Below, in pieces: positions 14,449-34,090 of a stretch of 35,690 nt of DNA. Source of the stretch: Rubrivivax sp. (lineage in GTDB: Bacteria; Pseudomonadota; Gammaproteobacteria; Burkholderiales; Burkholderiaceae_C); NCBI GenBank assembly GCA_024641965.1, contig JAHECC010000020.1, positions 1-35,690 on the forward strand, written 5' to 3'. The position numbers were made by a program, and so were the translations under genes. Within the stretch, counting starts at the first letter, position 1. Every line of letters starts with the position of its first letter. The notes beneath the pieces are model-generated. The model made no database searches, was not told where the DNA came from, and worked only from the letters and a program-made list of their open reading frames with translations.

Positions 14449-15381
14449 TCAGGGCTCCAGCTCGCGCTCCAGGTCGCCGACCAGTTCGGCCACCTGCTTG
14501 CTCATGCGTTCCAGCGCGGCGCGCGCGGCGTCGTTCAACGCATCCTTCTCCGCATCGAGCCGCGCGATCTCCTCGGGCGGCGCGCCACCCGCCGCGTCGA
14601 GGCGATGGATCGACTCGATCACCTCGTTGAGCCTGAACATCGCGCCCCGATAGACGTCGTTTTCCACCGACGCCAGCACGTCACGCACGTCTTCGCACAG
14701 GCTGCGCCGGTCGCGCCAGGCGGCGGTGATGCGGTCGCGGTGCAGGCCCAGGCGCGCAATGAAACGTTCACATACCGCGTTGTAGGCCGCCACACTGTCG
14801 CGCACATGGTCGAAGGCGGCCTGGTTCGCCGACAGCACCGCCAGGCTGTTGCCCATCGACGCCTGCCACCGGAAGGCCGCCTGCTTGAATTCGGTGAGCT
14901 CGTCGACCAGTTCGTCCAGCATCAGCCGCCGGTCGGCGCTGCGCAGCGTCTCGACCAGCACGCTGCAGTGCTTGAACAGCTCGTCGGCCAGCGTGCGCGC
15001 CGCGGCGGCAATGCCCTCGTCGCTGTGGTCGGTGGCCTCAAGATAGAGCATTTCCTCGGGGTCGATGCCGATCTCGGTCATGCGCGGCCCCAGGTCCTGC
15101 AGCAGCACCGGCAGCACATAGGTGCGTTGCAGGGCCAGTTGCCGCTGAAGCGCAAGTGCGGTCTCGCGCTTCACCCAGTCAGAGACCAGCGCGTGTTCAT
15201 CGATGAAGACCAGCACGAAATCGCAGTCGCGCCGGATCGCCGCCTCGATGCGCGGACCGAAGCGGTGGCCCGGACCCATCATGTCGCGGTCCAGCCAGAT
15301 CGACACATGCGGCGGCAACGCTTCGGTCAGGCGTCGCACCAGCGCCTTGCTCTCGCTGGCATGGCTGAGGAAGATCTTCAT
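14449..15381 (-). CDS. TIR-domain protein with helical C-terminal region
   Basis: The first 140 or so residues form a TIR domain: KIFLSHASESKALVRRL (strand A and helix A), IWLDRDMMGPGHRF (BB-loop region) and a C-terminal VLPVLL strand. Glu73 in SDWVKRE sits where catalytic TIR NADases have their essential glutamate. The rest of the 310-residue protein is helical, with a charged coiled-coil-like end (about 275-310), and matches no domain I know. Bacterial TIR proteins can hydrolyse NAD+ or make NAD-derived signals in anti-phage defence, but housekeeping or virulence roles also exist. It is followed after two bases by the protease gene and lies 54 bases downstream of dctM on the same strand. 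Confidence 0.85.
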   Translation of the reverse strand: MKIFLSHASESKALVRRLTEALPPHVSIWLDRDMMGPGHRFGPRIEAAIRRDCDFVLVFIDEHALVSDWVKRETALALQRQLALQRTYVLPVLLQDLGPRMTEIGIDPEEMLYLEATDHSDEGIAAAARTLADELFKHCSVLVETLRSADRRLMLDELVDELTEFKQAAFRWQASMGNSLAVLSANQAAFDHVRDSVAAYNAVCERFIARLGLHRDRITAAWRDRRSLCEDVRDVLASVENDVYRGAMFRLNEVIESIHRLDAAGGAPPEEIARLDAEKDALNDAARAALERMSKQVAELVGDLERELEP

Positions 15382-20043: not shown

Positions 20044-20708
20044 ACACACCCAGCACCCGCGCCCTGCCGCTGATCGAACGTCTGTCGGCCTGCTACACCG
20101 GCGCCGTGCACGACGTTCTGCGCGCCATGGGCCACGAACGCATCGTGCTGCCGCCCGAGATCAAGGCGCTGCAACCGGGACAGAAACTGGCCGGCCCGGT
20201 GTGGACCGTGGCCGGACACATCGACCGCAGCAAGAGCCGGCACGACTGCCTGCTCGGCTGGTGCACGCTGCTGGCCAAGGCGCCGGCGGGGCATGTGATC
20301 GTCTGCCAGCCGCACAACCACGAGGTCGCGCTGATGGGCGAGCTGTCGGCGCAGACGCTGGCTGCGCGTGGTGTGCTCGGCTACGTGGTGGATGGCGGCT
20401 CGCGCGACACCGAGCATGTGCTGGCGCAAGGCTTCCCGGTGTTCTGCTCGTTCCTGACGCCCTCGGACATCGTCGCACGCTGGATCCCGCAGGCCTACGG
20501 CGAGCCGGTGGACATCGGCGGTGTCACCATCCGCACCGGCGACTGGCTGCTCGGCGACCGCGATGGCGTGGTCATCATCCCGGCCGAGATTGCCGAAGAG
20601 GCGGTGACCAAGACCGAGGAAGTCGTCGCCACCGAAAGCGACATGCGCCGCGCGCTGGTGTCGGGCATGGACCCGGTCGAGGCGTACCTGAAATTCGGCA
20701 AATTCTGA
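20040..20708 (+). CDS. RraA-like / HMG-aldolase family protein
   Basis: This 222-residue protein belongs to the RraA/4-hydroxy-4-methyl-2-oxoglutarate aldolase fold. VVDGGSRDTEHV holds Arg122 and Asp123, the Arg-Asp pair that binds pyruvate and metal in the Pseudomonas HMG/CHA aldolase. GDRDGVVIIP near residue 175 is the second family signature. Intact Arg-Asp favours a class II pyruvate aldolase or related lyase over the RNase-E inhibitor RraA. Such aldolases act late in protocatechuate or gallate 4,5-cleavage. The start ATG overlaps the lysR stop (ATGA), so the regulator and enzyme are coupled. The other enzymes of an aromatic pathway are not in the window. Confidence 0.82.
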   Translation: MNTPSTRALPLIERLSACYTGAVHDVLRAMGHERIVLPPEIKALQPGQKLAGPVWTVAGHIDRSKSRHDCLLGWCTLLAKAPAGHVIVCQPHNHEVALMGELSAQTLAARGVLGYVVDGGSRDTEHVLAQGFPVFCSFLTPSDIVARWIPQAYGEPVDIGGVTIRTGDWLLGDRDGVVIIPAEIAEEAVTKTEEVVATESDMRRALVSGMDPVEAYLKFGKF

Positions 20709-20725
20709 GCAGGACCTGTCGACGT

Positions 20726-21382
20726 ATGAAGCTCGCGATCCTGCCGGTCACGCCGTTTCAGCAGAACTGCTCGCTCATCATCTGCCCCGAGACGAAGCGC
20801 GCGGCCTTCGTCGACCCCGGTGGCGAGGTCGACCGGCTGTTCGAGGCGCTGAAGGAATCCGGCGCGACGCTGGAGAAGATCCTGGTTACGCACGGTCACA
20901 TCGACCATTGTGGCGGTGTGGCCGAGATGGCTGAACGTGCCGGCGTGCCGATCGAAGGACCGCACCGCGACGACGCCTTCTGGATCGACCAGCTCGACGA
21001 GCAGGGGCACATGTTTGGCGTGAATGGCGCGCGCGGTTTCACGCCGGACCGCTGGCTGGCCGGCGGTGACAGCGCGACGGTCGGCAACATCGCCTTCGAG
21101 GTGCGCCACTGCCCCGGCCACACGCCCGGCCACGTAATCTTCGCCAACACCGAGCTCGGCATCGCCTTCGTTGGCGACGTGCTGTTCCAGGGCTCGATCG
21201 GCCGCACCGACTTTCCGCGCGGCGACCATGCCACGCTGATCCGATCGATCACGCAACAGCTGTGGCCGCTGGGCGACGACATCCAGTTCGTGCCCGGCCA
21301 TGGACCGATGTCCACATTTGGCGACGAGCGGCGCAGCAATGCCTTCGTCAGCGACGCGGCGCTGGGTCGCGCCGGCGAATAA
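20726..21382 (+). CDS. Glyoxalase-II-like metallo-beta-lactamase hydrolase (YcbL type)
   Basis: This 218-residue protein carries THGHIDHCGG (His56, His58, Asp60, His61), HCPGHTPGHV, GDVLFQGSIGRTD and VPGHGPMSTFGDE, matching the short glyoxalase-II-like hydrolases such as YcbL, which lack the long C-terminal helical domain of GloB. These proteins hydrolyse thioesters such as S-lactoylglutathione. It lies 17 bases after the RraA-like gene and is probably co-transcribed with it. Together with gloA (6340-6738) the window can encode both glyoxalase steps, though the genes are far apart. Confidence 0.88.
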   Translation: MKLAILPVTPFQQNCSLIICPETKRAAFVDPGGEVDRLFEALKESGATLEKILVTHGHIDHCGGVAEMAERAGVPIEGPHRDDAFWIDQLDEQGHMFGVNGARGFTPDRWLAGGDSATVGNIAFEVRHCPGHTPGHVIFANTELGIAFVGDVLFQGSIGRTDFPRGDHATLIRSITQQLWPLGDDIQFVPGHGPMSTFGDERRSNAFVSDAALGRAGE

Positions 21383-21575
21383 CTCGGGCCGGGCCATTGG
21401 CGACCGCCCGGATGGTGGCGGCACCCAAAATATGCAACATTTGCCACTGGCAAGCTCCTCAGCGCGCCTGCCGGTCGCCTGCTGCGGCTGATGCGGCGGG
21501 CACTTCAAACAACAACGTCGGGATAGCCGGACTTGCGACCATCGCGGTAGTGGTCCACGAGGCGAAAAACAGTCG
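21383..21575 (+). promoter_or_regulatory. Leader and promoter region of the cyclase-oxygenase cluster
   Basis: This is the longest gene-free stretch (193 bases) and is locally AT-richer around 21425-21445. It holds the dyad TTGCC-ACT-GGCAA (21441-21453), a possible operator. No clear -35/-10 pair or rho-independent terminator for the preceding gene was found. The ribosome site in front of the cyclase (GAGG at 21559-21562) is weak and far from ATG 21576, so initiation may be inefficient. Confidence 0.4.
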
Positions 21576-24500
21576 ATGCACTGCCGTCATTGCCAGCGGG
21601 TCAATCGCGAAGATGCGCGCTATTGCGCGGGCTGTGGTGGCGCGCTCGGTCTGCGCTGTGCTGTCTGCCAAAAGGACAATGCCGTTGACGCCGGCTTCTG
21701 CGACGGCTGCGGCGCGGCCCTGCCCGGCCCTGCGCAGTCCACCGATGCGCAGAGGGCGCCCCAGGGCTACACACCGGCGCACCTGGCACAGAAGATCCTG
21801 ACCCTGCGCTCTGCGCTGGAAGGCGAGCGCAAGCAGGTCACGGTGCTGTTCTGCGACATCGCCAATTCCACCGCGCTGGCGCAGCGCCTGGGCGCCGAGG
21901 CGATGCATCGCCTGCTGAACCAGTTCTTCGAGCTGGCGCTGCAGGAAGTGCACCGCGTCGAAGGCACCGTCAACCAGTTCCTCGGCGACGGCTTCATGGC
22001 ACTGTTCGGCGCACCGCTGGCGCACGAAGACCATGTCAGGCGCGCCTTGATGGCCGCGCTCGGCATCCGGACCCGGCTGGCCGAGGCCGCCGCCGGCGAC
22101 AACGCCGCATTCGCGCAGATCAGCCTGCGCATGGGCTTGAACAGCGGCGCCGTGGTGGTCGGCAAGATCGGCGACAACCTGCGCATGGACTACACGGCCG
22201 TGGGCAACACCACCAACCTGGCGGCGCGCCTGCAGAGCCTGGCGCAACCGGGGCGCATCTGCGTCAGCGACGCGGTGCAGGCCGTCGGGCAACGCCACTT
22301 CGACTTCGTATCGATCGGCCGGCACGCACTGAAGGGCATCGCCGAACCGGTATCGGTGTTCGAGCTGACACGCGCGCACTCGCGCGCCGACGACGACGCA
22401 CAGGGCGAGCGCCTGGGCATCGGCTCGGACCTGGTCGGACGCGACGAGGAGATCGCGACCCTGCACGCCTTCATTGCGCGGCTGCACGAAGGCCAGGGCG
22501 GCGTGCTGATCCTCAGCGGCGAGCCGGGCACTGGCAAGTCGCGACTGGTTGCCGAGACGCGGCGCCACAGCGGCGGCTCGGACCTGCAGTGGCTCGAAGG
22601 TCGCGCGGTGTCCTTCGGGCGCAGCCTGAGCTACTGGCCCTTCATCGAAGTGCTGCGCGAATGCTTCGGCATCGAGGACGACGACGGCGAGGACCTCATC
22701 TGGCGCAAGCTGCAACAGGGCCTGGAGCGCATCGTCGGCGAGCGCGCCGGCGAGATGCTGCCCTACATCGCCACGGTGCTGAAGCTGCGCCTGCCGCCCG
22801 AACACGAAGAGCGACTGAAATACCTGGACAGCCAGGGCGTCGGCCGGCAGGTGTTCCTTTGCATGCGCCAATTGTTCGAGCAACTGGCGAGCCGGCAGCC
22901 GGTGCTGCTGTTGCTGGAAGACTGGCACTGGGCCGACAAGTCGTCGATCCAGTTGGCCGAACACCTGCTGCCACTGACGGCCAGCACCTCGCTGCTGATG
23001 CTGTTTGCCTCGCGGCCCGAACCCCAGGCCAATACAGAGGCCATTCGCCTGGCGCTGGCCGCGGGGCCGGCGATGGGCAGGCTGCACGAGATCGCGCTGA
23101 CGCCGCTGTCCGAAGTGCACAGCCGCACGCTGATCGACAACCTGGTCGGCGCGTCGGGGCTGCCCGACGCGCTGGGCCAGCAGATCCTGCGTCGCACCGA
23201 AGGCAACCCCTTCTTCATCGAGGAGGTGGTCCGATCGCTGTTGACCGACGGTGTGCTCGCGCGCGATGAACGCAGCGGCTCGCTGCGGCTGGTCAAGCAG
23301 GTCGACCAGATCCATCTGCCGGAGACCATCCAGGGCCTGATCCTGGCGCGCATCGATCGGCTCGACGACGAAGTCAAGCAGGTGCTGAAGCTGGCCTCGG
23401 TCATCGGCCGCAGTTTCTTCAACCGCGTGCTGGAAGCCATCAGCGACGCGCAACGCGACCTGAAAGCCAGCCTGGACGAACTCGAGCACGCCGAGCTGGT
23501 GCGCCAGCGCCAGGTGACACCCGAGCTGGAGTACATCTTCAAGCACGCACTGGTGCAGGAGGCGGCCTACGGCAGCATCCTGGCCGAGAGCCGGCGCGGC
23601 GTCCATCGCCAGGTGGCGCGGGCCATCGAGAGCCTGTTCAGCGACCGGCTCGAGGAATTCACCACGCTGCTGGCCTACCACTACACGCTCGCCGAGGAAT
23701 GGGACAAGGCGCAGGAATATCTGTTCAAGGCCGGCGACCAGGCCGGCCGCATGGCCGCCGACACCGAAGCGCTGGAGCATTTCAGCCAGGCCGAAGCGGC
23801 CTATTCGAAGGCCTTCGGCGACCAGCTCGGCGGCGTGCAACGCGCCGCGCTGGCACGCAAGACCGGCACCGCACTGTTCGGCACCGGGCAGTACGAGCGC
23901 GGGCACGAACAGATGCGCCGCGCGCTGTCGCAACTCGGCATTCACTACCCGACGAGCGCCTGGGGCGTGCGCGGTGCCTTCGTCAAGCACCTGGCATCGC
24001 ATGCCTGGCGCCGCACGCGCAACCGTTTCGGCCGGCCGGTGCGGCGCGTCATGGATGTCGACGCGGCCGTCGAGATCTCGACCATCTGCCACTTCATGGC
24101 CTGGATGGACTACTTCCTCGACAAGGAGCGCATCCTGCTCGACAGTGTGCTCGAACTGCGCGTGGGCGAGACCAGCAGCCACGCGCTGGCCGAGGCGCGC
24201 GGCCTGAGCAGCCTGGGTTTCGGCTTCATGACCTTCGGCCTGCGCGGTCTGGCACGCCGCTACCACCTGCGCGCCAATGCGGTGGCGCAGCACTCGAACG
24301 ACCGGTCGGCCATCGCCTTTGCGATCTTCGCGCTGGGCTTCCTGGACTTCTTCGAAGGGCAATGGGACGAGGCCGAATCGCGGCTGGCCAAGGCCGCCGA
24401 GCTGTACCGCGAAACCGGCGACATCCACCGCTGGGGCGGCGCGGCGCTGATGCGGACCTTCGTGCTGCACTTTCGCGGCGACTTGAATTCGTGCCATGCG

Positions 24501-25340
24501 ATCGGCACCGAGCTGGTGCGCGCCGGCCAGGACGCAGCCGACCCGCAACTGGCCAGCTGGGGCTACCAGGCGCTGGGCTACCAGGGCCTGGCGCGCGGCC
24601 CGCTGGACGAGGTGGCGGCCAGCCTGGACCAGGGCCGGGAGCTGGCCGACAAGATCCACGCCTGGGACAACCTGCTGTACCTGAAATCGCTGCTGTGCAA
24701 GTGTCGGGTGCTGCAAGGCCGGCTCGACCTGGCGCTGGCCCAGGCCACCGAGGCGCTGGACATCATCCACGCGCAGAACTTCCGCATCGGCTTCGACCGT
24801 ATCGAGGTGTTCACCGCAGTCGCCACCGTCCGCGTCGCGCTGGCCGAAAGCCGGGCCGGCGAGGGCGATGCGACCGCGGCGCAGCGCGAAGCCCTGCGTG
24901 CCTGCCGCGCCGCGCTGCGCATTGCGCGGTCCCTGCCCTTGTGGCTGCCGCAGTCGCTGCGCCTGCAGGGCACGGCCTGCTGGCTGGGCGGCGACCGGGC
25001 CGGCGCGCACAAGGCCTGGCAGGAAAGCATCGATTGCGCCGAGCAGTCGTCTTTCCCGATCGAGCGTGCACTGACCTGGATGGAGATCGCCCGTCGCGGC
25101 AACGACAGCGCATCGCTCGACAAGGCCGTCCCGCTGTTTCGTCAGGCCGGTGCCAAGGTGCACCTGGCCAGCGCGCTGCACCTGCATGCGCAACTGCTGG
25201 CCGCCGCGGGCGCCGACGCCGTCGAATTGCGACAGGCCTTTGCCGTGGCCGTGGACGCGCTGGAAGAAGCGCATGTCGATCAGGAGCTGGCGTCGGCACG
25301 GCAGGCGCTGGCGCAATGGCAAGCCGCGGCACCGGCATGA
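21576..25340 (+). CDS. Soluble-adenylyl-cyclase-like protein: zinc ribbons, class III cyclase, AAA ATPase, TPR
   Basis: This 1254-residue protein starts with two zinc ribbons (Cys3, 6, 17, 20 and Cys28, 31, 42, 45). A class III cyclase domain follows (about 85-250) with metal ligands Asp94 (FCDIANST) and Asp138 (FLGDGFMALFGAP) and transition-state Asn214/Arg218 (NTTNLAARLQ). Thr207 replaces the base-binding Asp, as in class IIIb. Gln134 stands where the base-binding Lys is expected, so the product (cAMP or other) is uncertain. An ATPase has Walker A GEPGTGKS (Lys321) and Walker B LLLLEDWHWAD near 445. The C-terminal 600 residues are TPR-like helices. The arrangement resembles mammalian soluble adenylyl cyclase. 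Its stop overlaps the start of the catalase-like gene, so it is coupled to the oxygenase genes it may sense for or control. Confidence 0.9.
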   Translation: MHCRHCQRVNREDARYCAGCGGALGLRCAVCQKDNAVDAGFCDGCGAALPGPAQSTDAQRAPQGYTPAHLAQKILTLRSALEGERKQVTVLFCDIANSTALAQRLGAEAMHRLLNQFFELALQEVHRVEGTVNQFLGDGFMALFGAPLAHEDHVRRALMAALGIRTRLAEAAAGDNAAFAQISLRMGLNSGAVVVGKIGDNLRMDYTAVGNTTNLAARLQSLAQPGRICVSDAVQAVGQRHFDFVSIGRHALKGIAEPVSVFELTRAHSRADDDAQGERLGIGSDLVGRDEEIATLHAFIARLHEGQGGVLILSGEPGTGKSRLVAETRRHSGGSDLQWLEGRAVSFGRSLSYWPFIEVLRECFGIEDDDGEDLIWRKLQQGLERIVGERAGEMLPYIATVLKLRLPPEHEERLKYLDSQGVGRQVFLCMRQLFEQLASRQPVLLLLEDWHWADKSSIQLAEHLLPLTASTSLLMLFASRPEPQANTEAIRLALAAGPAMGRLHEIALTPLSEVHSRTLIDNLVGASGLPDALGQQILRRTEGNPFFIEEVVRSLLTDGVLARDERSGSLRLVKQVDQIHLPETIQGLILARIDRLDDEVKQVLKLASVIGRSFFNRVLEAISDAQRDLKASLDELEHAELVRQRQVTPELEYIFKHALVQEAAYGSILAESRRGVHRQVARAIESLFSDRLEEFTTLLAYHYTLAEEWDKAQEYLFKAGDQAGRMAADTEALEHFSQAEAAYSKAFGDQLGGVQRAALARKTGTALFGTGQYERGHEQMRRALSQLGIHYPTSAWGVRGAFVKHLASHAWRRTRNRFGRPVRRVMDVDAAVEISTICHFMAWMDYFLDKERILLDSVLELRVGETSSHALAEARGLSSLGFGFMTFGLRGLARRYHLRANAVAQHSNDRSAIAFAIFALGFLDFFEGQWDEAESRLAKAAELYRETGDIHRWGGAALMRTFVLHFRGDLNSCHAIGTELVRAGQDAADPQLASWGYQALGYQGLARGPLDEVAASLDQGRELADKIHAWDNLLYLKSLLCKCRVLQGRLDLALAQATEALDIIHAQNFRIGFDRIEVFTAVATVRVALAESRAGEGDATAAQREALRACRAALRIARSLPLWLPQSLRLQGTACWLGGDRAGAHKAWQESIDCAEQSSFPIERALTWMEIARRGNDSASLDKAVPLFRQAGAKVHLASALHLHAQLLAAAGADAVELRQAFAVAVDALEEAHVDQELASARQALAQWQAAAPA

Positions 25341-26347
25341 ACAAGCCCCGACTCGCCCAGGAGATCGTGCCCGAGGGCGAGGACCGGCATGTGCAGGCCC
25401 TGCTCGACTGCATGCACGGCCTGCTGCTGAGCAAGCCTCATGCGGGTGCGATGCCGCGCGACGTGCACATCAAGATGCACGGCCTGGTGAAGGCCGAGTT
25501 CGAGGTCGACACCGAGCTGCCCGACGAACTGCGCGTCGGCCTGTTCGGTCGGCCCGGCCGCTACCCGGCGTGGATCCGATTTTCCAACGCCGACAGCAGC
25601 AACAAGCCTGACAGCGCACGCGACATCCGCGGCATGGCGATCAAGGTCATGGGCGTGGACGGCGACAAGCTGCTGCCGGGCGAAAAGCACGCGCCGACGC
25701 AGGACTTCGTGCTCATCAGCACCGACGTCTTCGCGACGCGCGACGTGCGCGGCTTTCTCGGACTGGCGCGGGCCATCATCGGCAGCATCTGGCTCAAGCT
25801 GTGGTTCTTCCTCACGCATCCGCGCGTGGCCTGGTACCTGCTGTGCCATATGCGCCGCTTCGCCAACCCGCTGCAGATCCGCTACTTCAGCACCACGCCC
25901 TACCTGTTCGGCGCGCGCGCGGTGAAGTATTCGGCCACGCCACGCAGTGCCGCACGCGATGCGATGCCCGAGCCCGCCGGAGACAACCACCTTCGTCACA
26001 CGCTGGCGCACCAGTTGCAGCGCGGCGAGGTCTGGTTCGATTTCGCGGTGCAGTTCCAGACAGATGCCGAACGCATGCCGATCGAGGACCCGCGCAAGCG
26101 TTGGTCCGAAGCGCGCTCGCCCTTCGTCAAGGTCGCAAGCCTGCGCCTGCCGCAGCAGGACTGCGACACGCCGACGCGGCGCACGCTCGGCGAGAACCTG
26201 TCCTTCACACCCTGGCACGCGTTGCCGGAGCACCGGCCGCTGGGTGGCGTCAACCGCGCCCGGCGCGTGATCTACGAGGCCATCTCGAGCCTGCGCCATG
26301 GCCGCAATGAAGTCCGGAGGAGCGAGCCCCATGGCTGGGACGACTGA
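25337..26347 (+). CDS. Catalase-family haemoprotein, candidate fatty-acid hydroperoxide enzyme
   Basis: This 336-residue protein belongs to the short catalase-related family (y4iL-like). Visible features are VHIKMHG with candidate distal His44, WIRFSNADSSNKPD and RDIRGMAIKVMG (the strongly conserved catalase core, residues 95-106), and RYFSTTPYLFG (182-192), which holds candidate axial tyrosines. Ser128 (LISTDVF) stands where catalases have the distal Asn. A hydrophobic stretch at 147-170 could insert into one membrane leaflet. Relatives include coral allene oxide synthase and the catalase-like domain fused to lipoxygenase in Anabaena, which convert fatty-acid hydroperoxides. A lipoxygenase-like gene lies in this operon, favouring such a role over H2O2 removal (inference). 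The ATG overlaps the cyclase stop. Confidence 0.83.
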   Translation: MNKPRLAQEIVPEGEDRHVQALLDCMHGLLLSKPHAGAMPRDVHIKMHGLVKAEFEVDTELPDELRVGLFGRPGRYPAWIRFSNADSSNKPDSARDIRGMAIKVMGVDGDKLLPGEKHAPTQDFVLISTDVFATRDVRGFLGLARAIIGSIWLKLWFFLTHPRVAWYLLCHMRRFANPLQIRYFSTTPYLFGARAVKYSATPRSAARDAMPEPAGDNHLRHTLAHQLQRGEVWFDFAVQFQTDAERMPIEDPRKRWSEARSPFVKVASLRLPQQDCDTPTRRTLGENLSFTPWHALPEHRPLGGVNRARRVIYEAISSLRHGRNEVRRSEPHGWDD

Positions 26348-26434
26348 GAGCGCCGCATCATGCGTACACACGACAGGTGCAAGATGCCTCTTGTCCGACT
26401 ATCGTCGGGCGAAAAGCTCCAAGGGAGCGCCCCC

Positions 26435-28837
26435 ATGAACACTGCCACCCAAGCGATGGTTCCGGCCGCCGCGCTCGACGCGCTGCGCCGCCACGATTTC
26501 GACGCCGCACTCGGCCTGCTCGACGGCGCGGCCGACGCGACGCTGGACAGCGAGACCCACGCGCTGCTTGCCGCGGCGCACTTTCGCGCAGAGCAGTACG
26601 AAGCAGCGCAACAACACTACGCGGCCGCCGTGCAAGCTGCCCCCGACACGTCGCCGCGGCTCGCCGACTGGCGCCGCATGCTGGCGCTGGCGCAGGCCAA
26701 TGCCGCCGCGGAAATCCAGGTGCACGTGCCGCCGCTGCAGTACTTCGAGCGCGAGCCCTTGCTGGCACCACCACAGGACGACGCGCACGCGCTGCCCGCA
26801 CCTCCGCCACCGCGCGGCCCGGTGTCGTTCATCCGGCGCTGGCACATCGAGCTGGGCAACGTGCTGGGCCATTTGTGCCACTGGGTCGTCTACGCGACCA
26901 CGCACCTCGTCGGCCGGCTGGCCGGCTACCGTGACGCGGTGTGGACCAACTGGTACCGGCGACCGCAGCTGCTGGCCATCCTGACGCTGGCCTACATGCG
27001 CGAGAAGCTGAATGCACACAACCTGGGCTCGAGCTACCCGCAAGGCGCGCTGGCGGCCTACCAGCTCGACGGGCAGACGCCGCCGCAGGGCGTGAGCCAC
27101 TTTCGCACCGCCGACGGCAGCTGGAACAACCTGGCCAACCCGAAGGAAGGTGCGGCCGGCACGCGCTTCCTGCGCAACGTCGAGCACACGTCGATCAGGC
27201 CCGAAGTGGGCGCGCAGCTGTTGAGCCCGAACCCGCGCGAGATCAGCCGCGCGCTGTTCAGCCGGCCCAGTGATGACAACGACCAGCCGGTGATGCAGGA
27301 AGTGCCCTTCCTGAACCTGCTGGCAGGTTGCTGGATCCAGTTCATGAACGGCGACTGGATCAACCATGGCGAGATCCGCTACGCCGACGTGATCGAGGTG
27401 CCGCTGCCCGAGGACGACGCGGCGCGCACGCGCTACTGGCAGACCAAGATGTTCGTCGGCAAGACGCAGGCCGACCCCACACGCATGAGCGGCCGCGAAG
27501 TCGCCGCCGCCAGTTCCATCAACGAGGTCACGCACTGGTGGGACGGCTCACAGATCTACGGCAGCGACCAGGCCACGCAGGACCGCCTGCGCTCAGGCGT
27601 CGGCGGCAAGCTCAGGCTCAACGCCGACGGCACGCTGCCGCGCGCGGCCAACGGCGTCGAGGACACCGGCTTCACGCGCAACTGGTGGGTCGGGCTGGCG
27701 CTGATGCACACGCTGTTCGCGCGCGAGCACAACGCCATCTGCGACCACCTGGCCGAGGCCTACCCGCAGTGGGACGACAACCGGCTGTTCAACGTGGCAC
27801 GGCTGATCAACGCCGCGGTGATGGCCAAGATCCACACCATCGAATGGACGCCGGCGATCCTGCCCAACCCGGCACTGGACGCCGGCCTGAACATGAACTG
27901 GTACGGTGGCCTGACCAACCTGTTCCGCAAGGGCAAGGCGCGCAAGACCGTCACCGAGGTCAAGATCCGCAACCCTGAGATCGGCGGCGTGGTCGGCAAC
28001 CCGGTGGACAAACACGGCCAGTTCTTCGGTCTGACCGAGGAGTTCGTCGAGGTTTACCGACTGCATTCGCTGCTGCCCGAAAACTTGGCGCTGAGCCGCC
28101 TGGGCGGCGACGCGGTCGAGCATGTGCCCTTCAGCGCGTCACGCCAGCGCGGCTCGGGCCGCATCACCGACCGCTACGCGATGAGCGATCTGCTGCATGC
28201 CTTCGGGCAACAACACCCCGGTGCGCTGGTGCTGAACAACTACCCGCGCTTCATGCAGGAGCTGAGCATTCCGGGCAACCCGTTCTTCGACATGGGCACG
28301 GTGGACATCGTGCGCGCGCGCGAACGCGGCGTGCCGCGCTACAACGAGTTTCGCCGCCAGCTGGGGCTGAACCCGATCCGCATCTTTGAGGACCTGACGG
28401 ATTCAGCCGACGACGTGCGCAAGCTCAAGGCGGTGTACGGCAGCGACCCGGCCGACGTGGAAAAGCTCGACCTGCTCGTCGGCACGCTGGCCGAAGGGCA
28501 CCGGCCCACCGGCTTCGGCTTCGGCGAGACGCTGTTCCAGATCTTCATCCTGAATGCCACGCGCCGGTTGCAGGCCGACCGCTTCTACACCGACAGCTAC
28601 AACGACGAGGTCTACACACCCGAGGGCCTGCGCTGGATCGACATGAGCGACTTCAAGACCGTGCTGCTGCGCCACCATCCCGAACTGGCAGCCACCGGGC
28701 TGGCCAACATCCGCAACGCCTTCGAGCCCTGGGACACGCAGGCCGTGCTGTCCCCGCAGCGCCACCCGTTGCGCGGCTTCGACCCCGAACTCAAGGCCGA
28801 TCCGTGGCTGGGCGATGCCCATCGCCGCGCGAGCTGA
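26435..28837 (+). CDS. Alpha-dioxygenase/cyclooxygenase-like haem peroxidase with altered distal site
   Basis: The protein has 800 residues. Residues 1-110 are TPR-like helices. The rest aligns by eye with plant and bacterial fatty-acid alpha-dioxygenases of the animal haem peroxidase superfamily: WWDGSQIYGSDQ, ALMHTLFAREHNAIC, AVMAKIHTIEWT and LTEEFVEVYRLHSLLP. The last contains catalytic-type Tyr541 and proximal His544. In the distal segment WIQFMNGDWINH, Gly306 takes the place of the distal His found in plant enzymes (WIQFMIHDW), a striking loss. No signal peptide is present, so it is cytoplasmic or membrane-associated. AGGGAG precedes ATG 26435. It lies 87 bases after the catalase-like gene and 18 before the lipoxygenase-like gene. 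The likely substrate is a fatty acid or its hydroperoxide. Confidence 0.85.
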   Translation: MNTATQAMVPAAALDALRRHDFDAALGLLDGAADATLDSETHALLAAAHFRAEQYEAAQQHYAAAVQAAPDTSPRLADWRRMLALAQANAAAEIQVHVPPLQYFEREPLLAPPQDDAHALPAPPPPRGPVSFIRRWHIELGNVLGHLCHWVVYATTHLVGRLAGYRDAVWTNWYRRPQLLAILTLAYMREKLNAHNLGSSYPQGALAAYQLDGQTPPQGVSHFRTADGSWNNLANPKEGAAGTRFLRNVEHTSIRPEVGAQLLSPNPREISRALFSRPSDDNDQPVMQEVPFLNLLAGCWIQFMNGDWINHGEIRYADVIEVPLPEDDAARTRYWQTKMFVGKTQADPTRMSGREVAAASSINEVTHWWDGSQIYGSDQATQDRLRSGVGGKLRLNADGTLPRAANGVEDTGFTRNWWVGLALMHTLFAREHNAICDHLAEAYPQWDDNRLFNVARLINAAVMAKIHTIEWTPAILPNPALDAGLNMNWYGGLTNLFRKGKARKTVTEVKIRNPEIGGVVGNPVDKHGQFFGLTEEFVEVYRLHSLLPENLALSRLGGDAVEHVPFSASRQRGSGRITDRYAMSDLLHAFGQQHPGALVLNNYPRFMQELSIPGNPFFDMGTVDIVRARERGVPRYNEFRRQLGLNPIRIFEDLTDSADDVRKLKAVYGSDPADVEKLDLLVGTLAEGHRPTGFGFGETLFQIFILNATRRLQADRFYTDSYNDEVYTPEGLRWIDMSDFKTVLLRHHPELAATGLANIRNAFEPWDTQAVLSPQRHPLRGFDPELKADPWLGDAHRRAS

Positions 28838-28855
28838 CAGGACCTGGAGCCGAGC

Positions 28856-30373
28856 ATGATCATGTGGTTCCTGCGCCGGTGGTTCTGGAACTTCTTCGGC
28901 TGGCTGAAGATGTCGCTGAACAAGCCGTTGGTCATTCCGCTGCCGGCGGGCGACGGCACGCCCATCACGCCGGTGCCGCTGCGCGAGGCCGTGCCGCAGC
29001 TCCCGATCGACACCATCCTGGTGTGCGACCCGGCGCAGATCCCGCGCGACGAATTCAACAAGGCGCAGATGCTGGTCTACAAGCTGCAGATCTGGCTGTA
29101 CTCGGCCTTCTCGCCGATGCAGGCCGGCCTGCCGCCGATCGACGCCGACCCGGTGCGCGCCTTGAACAAGGCCTACACCTGGCTGCACCGCACGCGCTTC
29201 GCGCCGCCGGAACTGCCGGCCGAATACCTGGGCAGCCCCGACCTGGGCTCGCTGGCGGTGCGCGGGCCCTATGCCTGCTACCTGCAGCGGCTGGGCGACG
29301 ACCGGTATGAATGGGACTTCAGTTCGCTCGAAGGCTACGAATTGCACGACGGCCTGCGGCCACTGGGCGTGAAGGTGTCGTTCGAGCTCAACCGCCAGCG
29401 GCGCATGCTGCAAGCCGTGCGCATCGACTGCGCCTTGGGTGCGGTGGAGGTGGGTCAGCCCGGCTGGGAGCAGGCGAAGAAGCTGGCGCTGTGCGCGGCG
29501 AGCACGCACCTGTCGCTGGTGCGCCACTTCAACGGCGTGCATCTGATTGGCGGCGCCCACCTGGCCGTGGCCACGCGCAACCAGCTGCCGCCGGCCCACC
29601 CGCTGCGCCGGCTGCTGTGGCCCTACGTCTACGCCACGCAGCAAAGCAACGACATCGTCACGCGCGGGCAGATGCTTCCCGGCGGTGATTTCGAGACCAC
29701 CTTCAGCTTCACGTTCGACGGCATGTGCAAGCTGTTCGAGGACAGCTATGCCGACTACCGCCTGGTCGTCAACGACCCCGAGTGCGATGCCAAGATCCGG
29801 GGCACCTGGCAGGCCGGTTTCGTCACGCCCTCGCAGGACATCCAGGTGGCGCTGTTCGAGGTGATGCATGCGCATGCGCGCGACTATCTGCAGCTGTACT
29901 ACGCCGAGCCCCACGCCGTTCGCAACGACGCCTCGATCGGTGCCTGGCTCGATCAGCTGAATGCGCTGATCCCGAACGGCGTGGGCGTACTGTGTTCGGA
30001 CGTCGATTTCGACAGCCTGGCACGGTTGGTGGCGCGTTTCATGTACCTGGTGACGGTGCAGCACGAGCTGCTGGGCAGCTGCATGTGGCACTACCAGCTG
30101 TGGACCCACCGCCAGCCTGTGCGCGTGTACCTGAACGGCCAGCGCGAGCCGCGGGACGTGTACCAGCGGCTGGTGAATGCGAACTACAACCTGAACGTGT
30201 CACGCCGCGCGCTGATGCATGACTTCTCCTACCTGGCGCTCGACGCGCCCGGCGCGGCGGCGATGCAGGCATTCCAGCGCAGCCTGCAGGAGCTGCAGGT
30301 ATCGATGGAGCGCTCGCCACGCGCGGTGTGGACGCTGTACCCCGGGGCGCTGAAGGTCAACATCAATGCGTAG
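28856..30373 (+). CDS. Lipoxygenase-like protein (short, atypical)
   Basis: This 505-residue protein carries the lipoxygenase iron-binding helix: RHFNGVH gives the H-x4-H pair His224/His229, followed by RNQLPPAHPLRRLLWPY, a close match to the family's R-x-L-x3-HP-x2-KLLxPH. His403 (VQHELLG) fits the third His ligand; Gly407 stands where Asn is usual. The chain ends in NINA, so the terminal carboxylate ligand would come from Ala instead of the usual Ile. It is shorter than most bacterial lipoxygenases (600-700 residues) and lacks a PLAT domain. The Trp/Phe/Arg-rich N-terminus (FLRRWFWNFFGWLK) suggests membrane binding without a cleavable signal. GGAG is six bases ahead of ATG 28856. Activity is uncertain because of the ligand changes. 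Confidence 0.8.
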   Translation: MIMWFLRRWFWNFFGWLKMSLNKPLVIPLPAGDGTPITPVPLREAVPQLPIDTILVCDPAQIPRDEFNKAQMLVYKLQIWLYSAFSPMQAGLPPIDADPVRALNKAYTWLHRTRFAPPELPAEYLGSPDLGSLAVRGPYACYLQRLGDDRYEWDFSSLEGYELHDGLRPLGVKVSFELNRQRRMLQAVRIDCALGAVEVGQPGWEQAKKLALCAASTHLSLVRHFNGVHLIGGAHLAVATRNQLPPAHPLRRLLWPYVYATQQSNDIVTRGQMLPGGDFETTFSFTFDGMCKLFEDSYADYRLVVNDPECDAKIRGTWQAGFVTPSQDIQVALFEVMHAHARDYLQLYYAEPHAVRNDASIGAWLDQLNALIPNGVGVLCSDVDFDSLARLVARFMYLVTVQHELLGSCMWHYQLWTHRQPVRVYLNGQREPRDVYQRLVNANYNLNVSRRALMHDFSYLALDAPGAAAMQAFQRSLQELQVSMERSPRAVWTLYPGALKVNINA

Positions 30374-30400
30374 CAAGAACAACATCCGGAGGCTCCGCGC

Positions 30401-31948
30401 ATGAAAAGACGATTCCTCTGGTGGGTGGTCATCGCCGGCCTGTTGCTGAGCGCGCTGTGGGTCTGGAACCACCGCTTCGGCCAGCCCGACGATTTCGCCG
30501 ACATGGCGGCGCAGTACAAATACGGCTCGACCGGCTCGGACCACCCGCTGGCGCGTGCGCCGCTGCCGTACTGGTTGTGGAAGGTGCTGCCCGAGGTCTA
30601 CCCGCCCTATCAGGTGATGCCCCGGACCGTGGCGCCGAAGAACGAAATCAAGGGCTACGGCGCCTTCGGTCTGGTCAGCGAGGCCAGCATGGAACGGCCG
30701 GTCGGCATGGCCGAGGACCAGGCGCCGCTGGAGCGGCCGATCGGTTTTTCGAAGCGCCGTGTCTTCGGCATCGACCTGGTCGGCGTCAACTGCGCCTTCT
30801 GCCACCTGAGCACCGTGCGCAAGGACGCCACGCAGGCACCGCAGGTGGTGCTGGGCGGCACCGGCAATGCCGTCGACATCGAACAGTACTTCCTGTTCCT
30901 GTTTGCCGCACTCGACGGCAAGAACCTGGACGCCGACAAGGTGATGAGTGCGGTGATCAAGGAGGCGAACCGGCAGAACCGGCCGCTGGGTTGGGTCGAC
31001 CGCCTGCTGTACCGCTACATCCTGATCCCGCTGATTCCGCGCGTACTGGCGAAGATCGAGATCGACAACTTCGATTTCATCGCGGTGAACAGCGCCACCC
31101 GGCTGCCCGACTTCGGGCCCGGGCGCGTGGACACCTGGTCGCTGTACAAGCGGATCTTCGTCGAGCCTCCGCAGCGCGACCCGATACCCGGCATCGTCGA
31201 CTTCCCGTCGATCTGGAACCAGAAGGCCCGAGCGGGCATGCGCATGCACTGGGACGGCAACACCGACATCCTCGAAGAGCGCAACATCGTTTCCGCACTG
31301 GCGGTGATCGGCAAGAACATCGGCTACCTGGACTATGCGCGGCTGACGCGCACCACCGACTGGATCTTCGGCCTGCTGCCGCCGCGCTACGTCGACCGCA
31401 TCGGCCCGGTGCGGCAGGACCTGGTGGCGCGCGGCGCGCCGCTGTTCCGCGAGCATTGCGCCGAGTGCCATGCCAGCGACGGACTGCGCATCGGCCGCGT
31501 CGAACCGCTGCAGGACCTGGGCACCAACCCGACGCGGCTGCAGGACTTCACGCCGGAGCTGGCCGCGGGGCTGAACCGCCTGGGCACCGACGAATGGAAG
31601 CTGCGCAACTTCAAGCTCCAGGACGGCTACGTCAACACGCTGCTCGACGGCATCTGGCTGCGCGCGCCATACCTGCACAACGGCTCGGTGCCGACCTTGC
31701 GCGACCTGCTGAACGAGCCCGAGCTGCGGCCGCGCCGCTTTTGCCGCGGCAACGACCTGTTCGACTCACAAAACGTCGGCTACGTCTCGACCGGCCTGCC
31801 CGGCAAGGCGGAGCTGGACTGCGGCGTGTATTTCCTCTACGACACCCAGGAAGAACACGGCGGCAACGGCAACGGCGGGCACCTGTACGGCACCGGCCTG
31901 AGCGCCGAGGACAAGGACGCGCTGATCGAATTCCTGAAGACGCAATGA
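30401..31948 (+). CDS. Membrane-anchored di-haem cytochrome c (peroxidase/dioxygenase-like)
   Basis: This 515-residue protein has an N-terminal anchor (MKRRFLWWVVIAGLLLSALW) and should face the periplasm. Two haem-c sites are visible: CAFCH (Cys131, Cys134, His135) and CAECH (Cys353, Cys356, His357). Near residue 417 the segment RAPYLHNGSVPTLRDLL is typical of the di-haem peroxidase/rubber-oxygenase group. In Pseudomonas aeruginosa, two di-haem peroxidase-like proteins are the oleate 10S-dioxygenase and diol synthase, so an oxylipin role fits the neighbours; electron transfer is the alternative. The 220-residue spacing between haem sites and the anchor differ from classical CcpA. CCGGAGG precedes ATG 30401. 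It is the last gene of the cluster, 27 bases after the lipoxygenase-like gene. Confidence 0.85.
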   Translation: MKRRFLWWVVIAGLLLSALWVWNHRFGQPDDFADMAAQYKYGSTGSDHPLARAPLPYWLWKVLPEVYPPYQVMPRTVAPKNEIKGYGAFGLVSEASMERPVGMAEDQAPLERPIGFSKRRVFGIDLVGVNCAFCHLSTVRKDATQAPQVVLGGTGNAVDIEQYFLFLFAALDGKNLDADKVMSAVIKEANRQNRPLGWVDRLLYRYILIPLIPRVLAKIEIDNFDFIAVNSATRLPDFGPGRVDTWSLYKRIFVEPPQRDPIPGIVDFPSIWNQKARAGMRMHWDGNTDILEERNIVSALAVIGKNIGYLDYARLTRTTDWIFGLLPPRYVDRIGPVRQDLVARGAPLFREHCAECHASDGLRIGRVEPLQDLGTNPTRLQDFTPELAAGLNRLGTDEWKLRNFKLQDGYVNTLLDGIWLRAPYLHNGSVPTLRDLLNEPELRPRRFCRGNDLFDSQNVGYVSTGLPGKAELDCGVYFLYDTQEEHGGNGNGGHLYGTGLSAEDKDALIEFLKTQ

Positions 31949-31961
31949 CCCGCAGCGCGGG
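31949..31961. terminator. Possible bidirectional hairpin between the cytochrome gene and argG
   Basis: CCCGC-AGC-GCGGG forms a five-base GC stem directly after the cytochrome stop and nine bases before the argG stop on the other strand. No T-run follows on either side, so intrinsic termination would be weak. It is the only hairpin in this 22-base convergent gap. Confidence 0.3.
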
Positions 31962-31970
31962 CCCGCCGGC

Positions 31971-33389
<1,419 letters not shown>

Positions 33390-33406
33390 CGTTCAGAACA
33401 ACAGAA

Positions 33407-33428
33407 TACACTGCATCCGTGTACACTG
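33407..33428 (+). promoter_or_regulatory. Repeated TACACTG sites, likely toxin-antitoxin promoter/operator
   Basis: TACACTG occurs at 33407-33413 and again at 33422-33428, 15 bases apart. The second copy is part of the palindrome GTGTACAC (33419-33426). The segment is AT-richer than its surroundings and ends 28 bases before the antitoxin start, a place typical for autoregulation of toxin-antitoxin operons. TACACT also resembles a -10 box. Confidence 0.4.
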
Positions 33429-33456
33429 TCTTCGTGCGATATCGGAGACCCAACGC

Positions 33457-33678
33457 ATGAAGAACATCACCCTCAGCGCCGACGAGCGACTCATCGAGGC
33501 GGCGCGTGAACGCGCGCGCGCCGAGAAGTCGACGCTGAACGAGCAGTTCCGGCGCTGGCTTGCCTCCTATGCCGACACCTCCGAGCGCTTGCAGCGCTAT
33601 GACAAGTTGATGCCCTCGCTGCGAGGCCAGGTCAAGGTCGGCCGCAAGCTGAGCCGGGAACAGATGAATGAGCGCTGA
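33457..33678 (+). CDS. VapB-like antitoxin
   Basis: This 73-residue protein begins MKNITLSADERLIEAARERA and continues STLNEQFRRWLASY, the strand-helix-helix pattern of ribbon-helix-helix antitoxins that go with PIN toxins. The C-terminal part (KVGRKLSREQMNER) is basic and would wrap the toxin. GGAG (33444-33447) is nine bases ahead of ATG 33457; a longer frame upstream runs through the promoter repeats and is unlikely. It overlaps the toxin gene by 11 bases, the usual antitoxin-first coupling. It should bind its own promoter, where repeats are visible. Confidence 0.8.
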   Translation: MKNITLSADERLIEAARERARAEKSTLNEQFRRWLASYADTSERLQRYDKLMPSLRGQVKVGRKLSREQMNER

Positions 33679-34090
33679 AATCTTCATCGACACCAACGTC
33701 TTCGTCTATCACCTCGACAGCAGCGACAAGCGCAAGCACCGCATTGCCGAAGGCATCGTGCGCGACGCGGTCGCAAGTGCCAACGCCTGCATCAGCTTCC
33801 AGGTAGTGCAGGAATGGCTGAACATTGCGCTGCGAAAGGCGACTGTCCCACTGACGGGCGAGCAGGCTCGCGACTATCTCGATGTGGTGCTGCTGCCGTT
33901 GATGCAGGTGTCGGCCTCGGGCGCGCTGTACCACCGCGCGCTGGATGTGCAGCAACGATGGCGCTTCGGTTTCTACGACAGCCTGATCGTCGCGGCGGCG
34001 CTCGCCGCAGGGTGCACGCGCCTGATCAGCGAAGATCTGCAGCACGGCCAGCGCATCGAAACGATGGTGGTGCACAACCCGTTCATCTGA
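33668..34090 (+). CDS. PIN-domain toxin ribonuclease (VapC family)
   Basis: This 140-residue PIN-domain protein carries the acidic metal-binding residues expected for VapC: Asp8 (FIDTNVFVY), Glu49 (VVQEWLN), Asp104 (FYDSLIVAAA) and Asp123 (LISEDLQHG). VapC toxins cut RNA, often initiator tRNA or the sarcin-ricin loop, and are held inactive by VapB. All four residues are intact, so the toxin should be active. The ATG lies inside the antitoxin gene's end. The SDR gene starts 55 bases further on and may be read from the same transcript. Confidence 0.88.
   Translation: MSAEIFIDTNVFVYHLDSSDKRKHRIAEGIVRDAVASANACISFQVVQEWLNIALRKATVPLTGEQARDYLDVVLLPLMQVSASGALYHRALDVQQRWRFGFYDSLIVAAALAAGCTRLISEDLQHGQRIETMVVHNPFI

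Follow-up and report, generated by a model that had tools for sequence, protein, structure and literature searches.

Do five adjacent genes of a Rubrivivax sp. contig, encoding a nucleotide cyclase, a catalase-related haemoprotein, an alpha-dioxygenase-type haem protein, a lipoxygenase-fold protein and a di-haem cytochrome c, make up one pathway of lipid oxygenation? We addressed this question for a stretch of 35,690 nucleotides (GenBank assembly GCA_024641965.1, contig JAHECC010000020.1, positions 1 to 35,690 of the forward strand; hereafter the window), in which the genes, called CYC, CAT, PXD, LOX and ROX in their order, lie tightly packed on the + strand at 21576-31948 (Table 1). Our answer is that they probably form a horizontally spread operon in which fatty acids are oxygenated under putative cyclase control. 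The original prediction of a five-gene + strand cluster of these families, made from the sequence, was confirmed by gene calls and by Pfam and NCBIfam matches (double zinc ribbon, class III cyclase and AAA_16 for CYC; Catalase; animal haem peroxidase; Lipoxygenase; RoxA-like/CytoC_perox). The end of CYC overlaps the start of CAT by four bases, and the later gaps measure 87, 18 and 27 bases; an alternative PXD start at 26360 is possible, and this earlier ATG would leave a CAT-PXD gap of 12 bases. The frames of CYC, PXD, LOX and ROX are backed by guanine-cytosine (GC) content at third positions, and the CAT frame sits inside a longer open frame that the third-position GC filter does not list.

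The five genes were gained or lost as one unit. In congener G022, the MBL side (window 20304-21366, 85% DNA identity) and the argG side (31971-33313, 90%) are separated by 753 bp without the five genes, and hence we regard the cluster as a single gain/loss unit of ~10.6 kb. By eye, one frame of the 753 bp at this empty site appears PIN-like. The other 11 congener stretches revealed no second such site: argG alone was matched in them, plus the antitoxin and PIN genes in one. Compositionally the cluster is no island (GC 0.66-0.70, compared with 0.64-0.72 elsewhere). Among 61 genomes of relatives, matches were confined to two genomes for LOX, four for PXD and three for CAT, the window's own being counted each time, so that a trait of the genus was rejected. 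LOX is also sporadic in larger, overlapping samples that include the window's own genome (6/399 and 4/397 genomes), and in one mycobacterial genus it occurs in 1 of 118 genomes, the centre itself, which excludes a trait of that whole genus. Orthologues scattered singly in close relatives had been named as a check on the prediction. Single congener homologues do exist (G031, G025 and G006), but they are only 28% (LOX), 31% (PXD) and 34% (CAT) identical, and we read them as paralogues because the LOX and PXD proteins of the nearest PXD clade, from other orders and phyla, are 54-70% identical. Closer single homologues are found in more distant members of the order (PXD, 42-43% in G051; CAT, 35-36% in G050). 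No CAT, PXD or ROX homologue (E 1e-4) was found in nine stretches around the order- and phylum-level LOX matches and the G031 match, and a plasmid search returned a single distant LOX, in Nostoc, around which the annotation shows no member of the other families.

PXD and the new type of LOX-fold protein are linked across phyla. Related loci were collected by a PXD-alignment scan of genome contigs, and the best 80 of 558 confirmed relatives, ranked by similarity, were analyzed. In 32 of the 80 the match begins before query residue 80 (long PXD, 45-70% identical); the other 48 hold a short PXD. Long PXD is spread over nine named phyla, and in 19 of the 32 loci it is flanked on each side by 2 kb or more. 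LOX adjoins PXD in 10/32 long-PXD loci versus 0/48 short-PXD loci (Fisher p 3.9e-5, relatedness ignored), lying downstream in Rhodoferax and six Mycobacteriaceae and upstream in three other Actinomycetota. In the PXD tree the window groups with Rhodoferax and another betaproteobacterium (support 99/96), beside the six mycobacteria (100/99). LOX is present in eight of the nine rows of this clade (100/100), the contig of the ninth (L083) stopping inside PXD, and in three of the four rows of a second clade. The LOX-adjacent label changes four times on the PXD tree, compared with 9.4 times in shuffles, and the nine-locus LOX tree is compatible with the PXD tree of the same loci. Since the adjacency spans two gene orders and two clades, we argue that PXD and LOX are functionally tied.

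Three of these loci deserve separate mention. An inverted PXD piece at the contig end (L083:4001-4153) is probably an assembly artefact. At L064:6520-9843, directly 5' of PXD, a DyP-type peroxidase-like domain (DyP_N, 24.3 bits, cut-off 27.5) and a LOX domain share one open reading frame (ORF). In Humibacillus (L072:12350-15514), an ORF of 1054 residues that drew no Pfam or NCBIfam match within the limits set follows PXD immediately.

The same alpha-dioxygenase is repeatedly linked with catalase-related, RoxA-like, aldehyde dehydrogenase, P450 and patatin phospholipase genes, which lie beside or near PXD in other loci. In Rhodoferax L045 and in L083 a patatin-like protein of 900 residues is encoded directly upstream of PXD, the place that CAT holds in the window; the planctomycete Schlesneria has the order CAT, class 3 lipase, patatin, PXD. 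A 22-kb stretch of Nitrosomonas marina Nm71 (L071, 1-20774) amounts to a large lipid-oxidation island: a partial di-haem-family gene, a YRWH haem dioxygenase, LOX, patatin, aldehyde dehydrogenase and long PXD, together with a DyP-like protein, a CAT-like protein (35% to window CAT, no Pfam match) and a second patatin. ROX homologues lie 3' of PXD in L047 and L056, and a ROX C-terminus lies 5' of it in L048; a P450 gene adjoins PXD in L048 and ROX in L056. CAT and PXD are fused on plasmids of Rhizobium phaseoli (L027:6915-9743), where ROX comes next, and Phyllobacterium (L033:6780-9629). In NGR234, CAT is accompanied by two di-haem pieces and a patatin-like gene; on two further rhizobial plasmids ROX is present in two copies, along with a di-haem protein of a second kind and a GMC oxidoreductase. 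These recurring neighbours are in keeping with the supply of fatty acids, their oxygenation and later conversion. The neighbours in other long-PXD loci, such as histidine kinase, beta-lactamase-like, sulfatase or FtsX genes, show no connection of this kind. The functional linkage of the families that had been predicted thus gained support from the PXD-LOX pairs, from the recurrence of CAT, ROX, cyclases and phospholipases near PXD and from the fusions; the reappearance of parts of the cluster in different phyla makes the observation stronger than it was from the sequence alone.

Two further observations concern this neighbourhood. A second long di-haem family accompanies GMC oxidoreductases and ROX or PXD in L035:9324-12098, L036, L055, L060 and L071; its 776-residue L060 copy has two CxxCH motifs and no Pfam match. 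On a Streptomyces plasmid (L032), an alpha-dioxygenase-like gene is annotated beside genes for an alpha/beta hydrolase, a P450, a FAD-linked oxidase and a benzoylformate decarboxylase.

In sequence and fold, PXD is closest to solved alpha-dioxygenases (4hhr, 4kvj), and we read its residues from 1 to about 95 as a TPR-like N-terminus. The YRxH motif with catalytic Y541 and proximal H544, YRLH in the window, is present in 32 of 33 alignment rows, that is, in every readable one. YRWH, which we take to be the corresponding motif of the linoleate 10S-dioxygenase of Nostoc punctiforme, occurs in enzymes of N. marina (L071) and M. currus (L030). By alignment and spacing, PXD also has the fatty-acid-contacting residues H467, T472, F537, F704 and R711; roles of the corresponding His, Thr, Phe and Arg in alpha-dioxygenases are described in the available part of PMC8720084. 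A structure model of PXD has low confidence at parts of the active site (residues 304-311 and 501-540).

The LOX protein has the lipoxygenase fold, and the iron-binding residues H224, H229 (HxxxxH) and H403 are kept in all nine complete rows of its alignment; two truncated rows are unreadable. (The N. marina DyP-like protein, which had grouped here via the L064 DyP-LOX ORF, was excluded on its Pfam assignment.) The fourth ligand, four residues past the third His, is Gly in all nine (G407 in the window) instead of Asn or His, and the C-terminal Ile is replaced by Ala in seven and Gly in two (A505 in the window), the terminal position itself being kept. The LOX of N. marina has the usual His at the fourth ligand position, and that of G031 has Asn. 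In true lipoxygenases two clusters of iron ligands, two His and then His with Asn, are essential according to the part of PMC6612559 available. We conclude that LOX, lacking the fourth ligand and the C-terminal Ile, is a LOX-fold relative rather than a canonical enzyme; judged by these residues, it is a distinct subfamily. The altered residues are conserved down to 41% identity, which argues against decay.

CAT scores 28.5 bits against Pfam Catalase (cut-off 25) and its closest solved structure is 3e4w (36.7 bits). We take H48 of its HG motif as the distal His; a TPY-like region, a candidate for the site of the proximal Tyr, aligns in several, not all, homologues. ROX has CxxCH at 131 and 353 and HNGSV at 426, and a hydrophobic N-terminus, read from the sequence, suggests that it is probably periplasmic and anchored. 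It matches NF040606 at 157.5 (cut-off 150), a family that gave one match in 14 control genomes, none above the cut-off, and a RoxA-like cytochrome domain at 56.4 bits. Assignment as the RoxA rubber dioxygenase was rejected (35 bits, compared with an NCBIfam RoxA cut-off of 1000).

CYC begins with a double zinc ribbon (residues 3-45, four CxxC), has a Walker A motif at 315 and ends in a helical, TPR-like half; we take D94, D138, N214, R218 and K253 to be its class III cyclase residues. The TOMM kinase/cyclase family was rejected (TIGR03903, 293 bits versus a cut-off of 705.75). Rhodoferax has CYC pieces of 66% over residues 1-512, at a contig end, and 48% over 952-1249 (L045); from these alignments its gene is likely the CYC orthologue, both pieces presumably belonging to one gene. 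A CYC-type cyclase lies within two genes of long PXD in 7/32 loci. The mycobacterial PXD-LOX pairs have a divergently transcribed zinc-ribbon cyclase, 77-89% among six genomes (one piece partial) and 30-35% to window CYC. In G031 the LOX-like gene adjoins a divergent cyclase, and the LOX genes of L009 and L044 have CYC-like ATPase genes nearby. The presence of the cyclase gene and its overlap with CAT make the putative signal control likely.

If the five proteins act together, the cyclase/ATPase would sense a cytoplasmic cue and, through the cyclic nucleotide that it makes, activate the operon or its enzymes. The Tyr541 radical of PXD would add O2 to a fatty acid at C2, and the resulting 2-hydroperoxide could lose CO2 to become an aldehyde one carbon shorter. 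LOX, with an iron site of three His and the terminal carboxylate, may oxygenate or rearrange the same lipid elsewhere; CAT would cleave or isomerise hydroperoxides; and ROX would complete the sequence in the periplasm, close to the site of export, with an oxygenation or peroxidase step. In the two betaproteobacterial relatives with a patatin lipase in CAT's place, the lipase might free the fatty acid, as phospholipase A2 does in animals. A bolder version, which we put forward tentatively and hold to be possible rather than probable, is that such loci are undescribed mobile 'eicosanoid-like' assembly lines of bacteria. They would combine a cyclase/ATPase switch, a phospholipase or catalase-related converter, a TPR-armed alpha-dioxygenase free of the distal His and a new LOX class with three His and the terminal carboxylate, the two oxygenases working in tandem on one lipid, and a periplasmic last step; the core dioxygenase would be patchy over the nine phyla and the product a dedicated lipid signal.

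Several observations weigh against the lipid-oxygenation operon. Conserved co-occurrence of the five families, a check proposed with the prediction, did not hold: the full set, in any order, was found in none of the 80 related loci (best 80 of 558). Near long PXD, ROX (3/32) and CAT (4/32) are rare, and the CAT of L068, at 16.1 bits, is below the Pfam cut-off. In L059, of the second LOX clade, there is no LOX within 3.7 kb upstream of PXD, and the window's cluster has no lipase. Cyclase homologues are common, with 2-32 matches per genome in 12 genomes, which makes single cyclase adjacencies weak. Without two canonical first-sphere side chains LOX may bind iron weakly or catalyze another reaction, and the host, if betaproteobacterial as the kin of its PXD and CYC suggest, probably has few polyunsaturated fatty acids and hence no obvious native LOX substrate. 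In PXD the distal His, which helps generate the Tyr radical, is replaced by G306, and it is absent in 7/33 rows. We do not take this residue as defining for alpha-dioxygenases, since it is only partially conserved in the family, whose bacterial members span five phyla (as given in the available part of PMC8720084). The three hydroperoxide-making enzymes of the original prediction are thus best called putative, LOX and PXD both deviating at catalytic positions.

The altered catalytic positions, the sporadic distribution and the lack of the full set elsewhere would suit a loose collection, brought together by chance or transfer, of genes that serve no common pathway and of which LOX and PXD have partly degenerated. 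However, the PXD-LOX linkage persists where the gene order is reversed and through jumps from phylum to phylum, and conservation extends to Tyr and His of PXD, to the three His of LOX and to its altered residues; we give a loose collection a small chance. Somewhat better placed, although still unlikely, is an operon for detoxification of lipid hydroperoxides, in which CAT, PXD and ROX as peroxidases would remove lipid peroxides, the LOX-like protein would bind oxidised lipid and the cyclase would sense oxidative damage. A protective role would explain the cyclase sensor, CAT and ROX come from peroxidase superfamilies, and weakly scored DyP-like domains occur in L064 and L071. The nearest kin of PXD, however, are alpha-dioxygenases and not peroxidases; it lacks the distal His needed for a peroxidase cycle and keeps the oxygenase Tyr in all readable rows, and the LOX-fold partner and phospholipases make or feed hydroperoxides.

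Least probable, in our view, is breakdown of a hydrophobic polymer or terpenoid other than a fatty acid, in which ROX would be a RoxA-like oxygenase of polyisoprene or terpenoids and the other enzymes would handle its fragments. The RoxA-like cytochrome domain would agree with it, as would the two rhizobial plasmids on which duplicate ROX genes accompany the further di-haem protein and the GMC oxidoreductase, but the score of ROX is far below the RoxA cut-off, PXD and LOX belong to families of fatty-acid oxygenases and the patatin neighbours suggest acyl lipids. We retain oxygenation of fatty acids as the most likely function of the operon, an interpretation that is plausible but narrowed: the whole set is unique among the loci examined, two active sites are atypical and one pairing is known. 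If true, it would mean a controlled bacterial lipid-signal pathway parallel to those of animals and plants, and expression of the operon in a heterologous host would make the roles of bacterial cyclooxygenase (COX)-like and LOX-like enzymes directly testable.

Table 1. Features of the cluster and the segment that contains it (positions in the window; lengths in amino acids, aa)
Feature	Position	Strand	Length	Description
CYC	21576..25340	+	1254 aa	double zinc ribbon, class III nucleotide cyclase, AAA_16/STAND-type ATPase; proposed sensor/controller
CAT	25337..26347	+	336 aa	small catalase-related haemoprotein; proposed fatty-acid hydroperoxide lyase, isomerase or peroxidase
PXD	26435..28837	+	800 aa	TPR-like N-terminus and fatty-acid alpha-dioxygenase-type haem domain
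LOX	28856..30373	+	505 aa	lipoxygenase-fold protein
ROX	30401..31948	+	515 aa	di-haem cytochrome c, RoxA / fatty-acid di-haem peroxidase superfamily
Segment absent from congener G022	21367..31970	.		between MBL gene and argG

The cluster is preceded by genes for a LysR regulator, an RraA-like protein (read from the sequence) and an MBL-fold protein, and followed by convergent argG, an antitoxin-like ORF and a PIN toxin gene. The antitoxin/PIN toxin pair beside argG (window 33343-34087, +) is also found in L152 and in congeners G022 and G012. A gene for a TIR-domain protein (window 14452-15381, -) adjoins a TRAP transporter and possibly has a role in defence or signalling. The window gave no Rfam and no tRNA match; consensus promoters were rejected, since the single one found, spanning the PXD-LOX junction, compares with an expectation of 0.7.

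How does the cluster compare with known systems? Bacterial oxylipin enzymes appear in the open-licence literature mostly singly or in pairs. We found there no described system of alpha-dioxygenase, LOX, catalase-related and di-haem proteins, which supports the claimed novelty of the five-part set; less new than claimed is the step of a COX-like dioxygenase with a catalase-related lyase, a combination already known in Nostoc punctiforme. There, linoleate 10S-dioxygenase works with a catalase-related 10S-hydroperoxide lyase (available parts of PMC9579011, PMC13049297 and PMC11719350), with a cyanobacterial fusion protein described in PMC11719350 and a separate gene in PMC13049297. As in that pair, a COX-superfamily haem dioxygenase and a catalase-related haemoprotein would act on fatty-acid hydroperoxides, and CAT directly precedes PXD. 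A YRWH-type enzyme beside the catalase was looked for, however, and the window's PXD is instead of the alpha-dioxygenase type (YRLH), with its TPR-like N-terminus; the available excerpts mention no LOX, di-haem protein or cyclase with the Nostoc pair. With plant and cyanobacterial alpha-dioxygenases (4hhr, 4kvj; PMC8720084, in part) PXD shares the fold, the Tyr, the proximal His and the H467, T472, F537 and R711 positions, but not the distal Gly, the N-terminal extension or the operon with LOX, CAT and ROX.

Pairing of a catalase-related protein with LOX recalls the coral allene oxide synthase-lipoxygenase (3dy5) and the cyanobacterial catalase-LOX fusions (known from the part of PMC11719350 available), whereas in the window the genes are separate, the LOX iron ligands altered and an alpha-dioxygenase, a di-haem protein and a cyclase added. 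Compared by description, ROX resembles the proteins of the Pseudomonas aeruginosa oleate diol synthase operon PA2077/PA2078, which are RoxA-related di-haem enzymes with two CxxCH and HNGSV, are periplasmic and act on fatty acids; their oxylipins alter motility and biofilm (PMC4496055 and PMC5155153, as far as these texts were available). Unlike that operon, the window has one di-haem protein, of 515 aa versus 634 and 624, beside three other oxygenase families. For LOX the closest parallel is the N694G mutant of soybean LOX-1 (1y4k), a laboratory variant of a plant enzyme with an engineered iron site; the window's subfamily has a natural Gly and would be a natural version of that mutant, useful for lipoxygenase chemistry. 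In animals, phospholipase A2 frees a fatty acid ahead of COX and LOX. The plan is similar here, with a lipase (in the relatives only), a haem dioxygenase, a lipoxygenase and a hydroperoxide-converting enzyme, but the cyclase is a member of the operon, and we make no claim of descent. By analogy, the locus hints at a bacterial counterpart of the animal pathways that make hormone-like oxidised fats.

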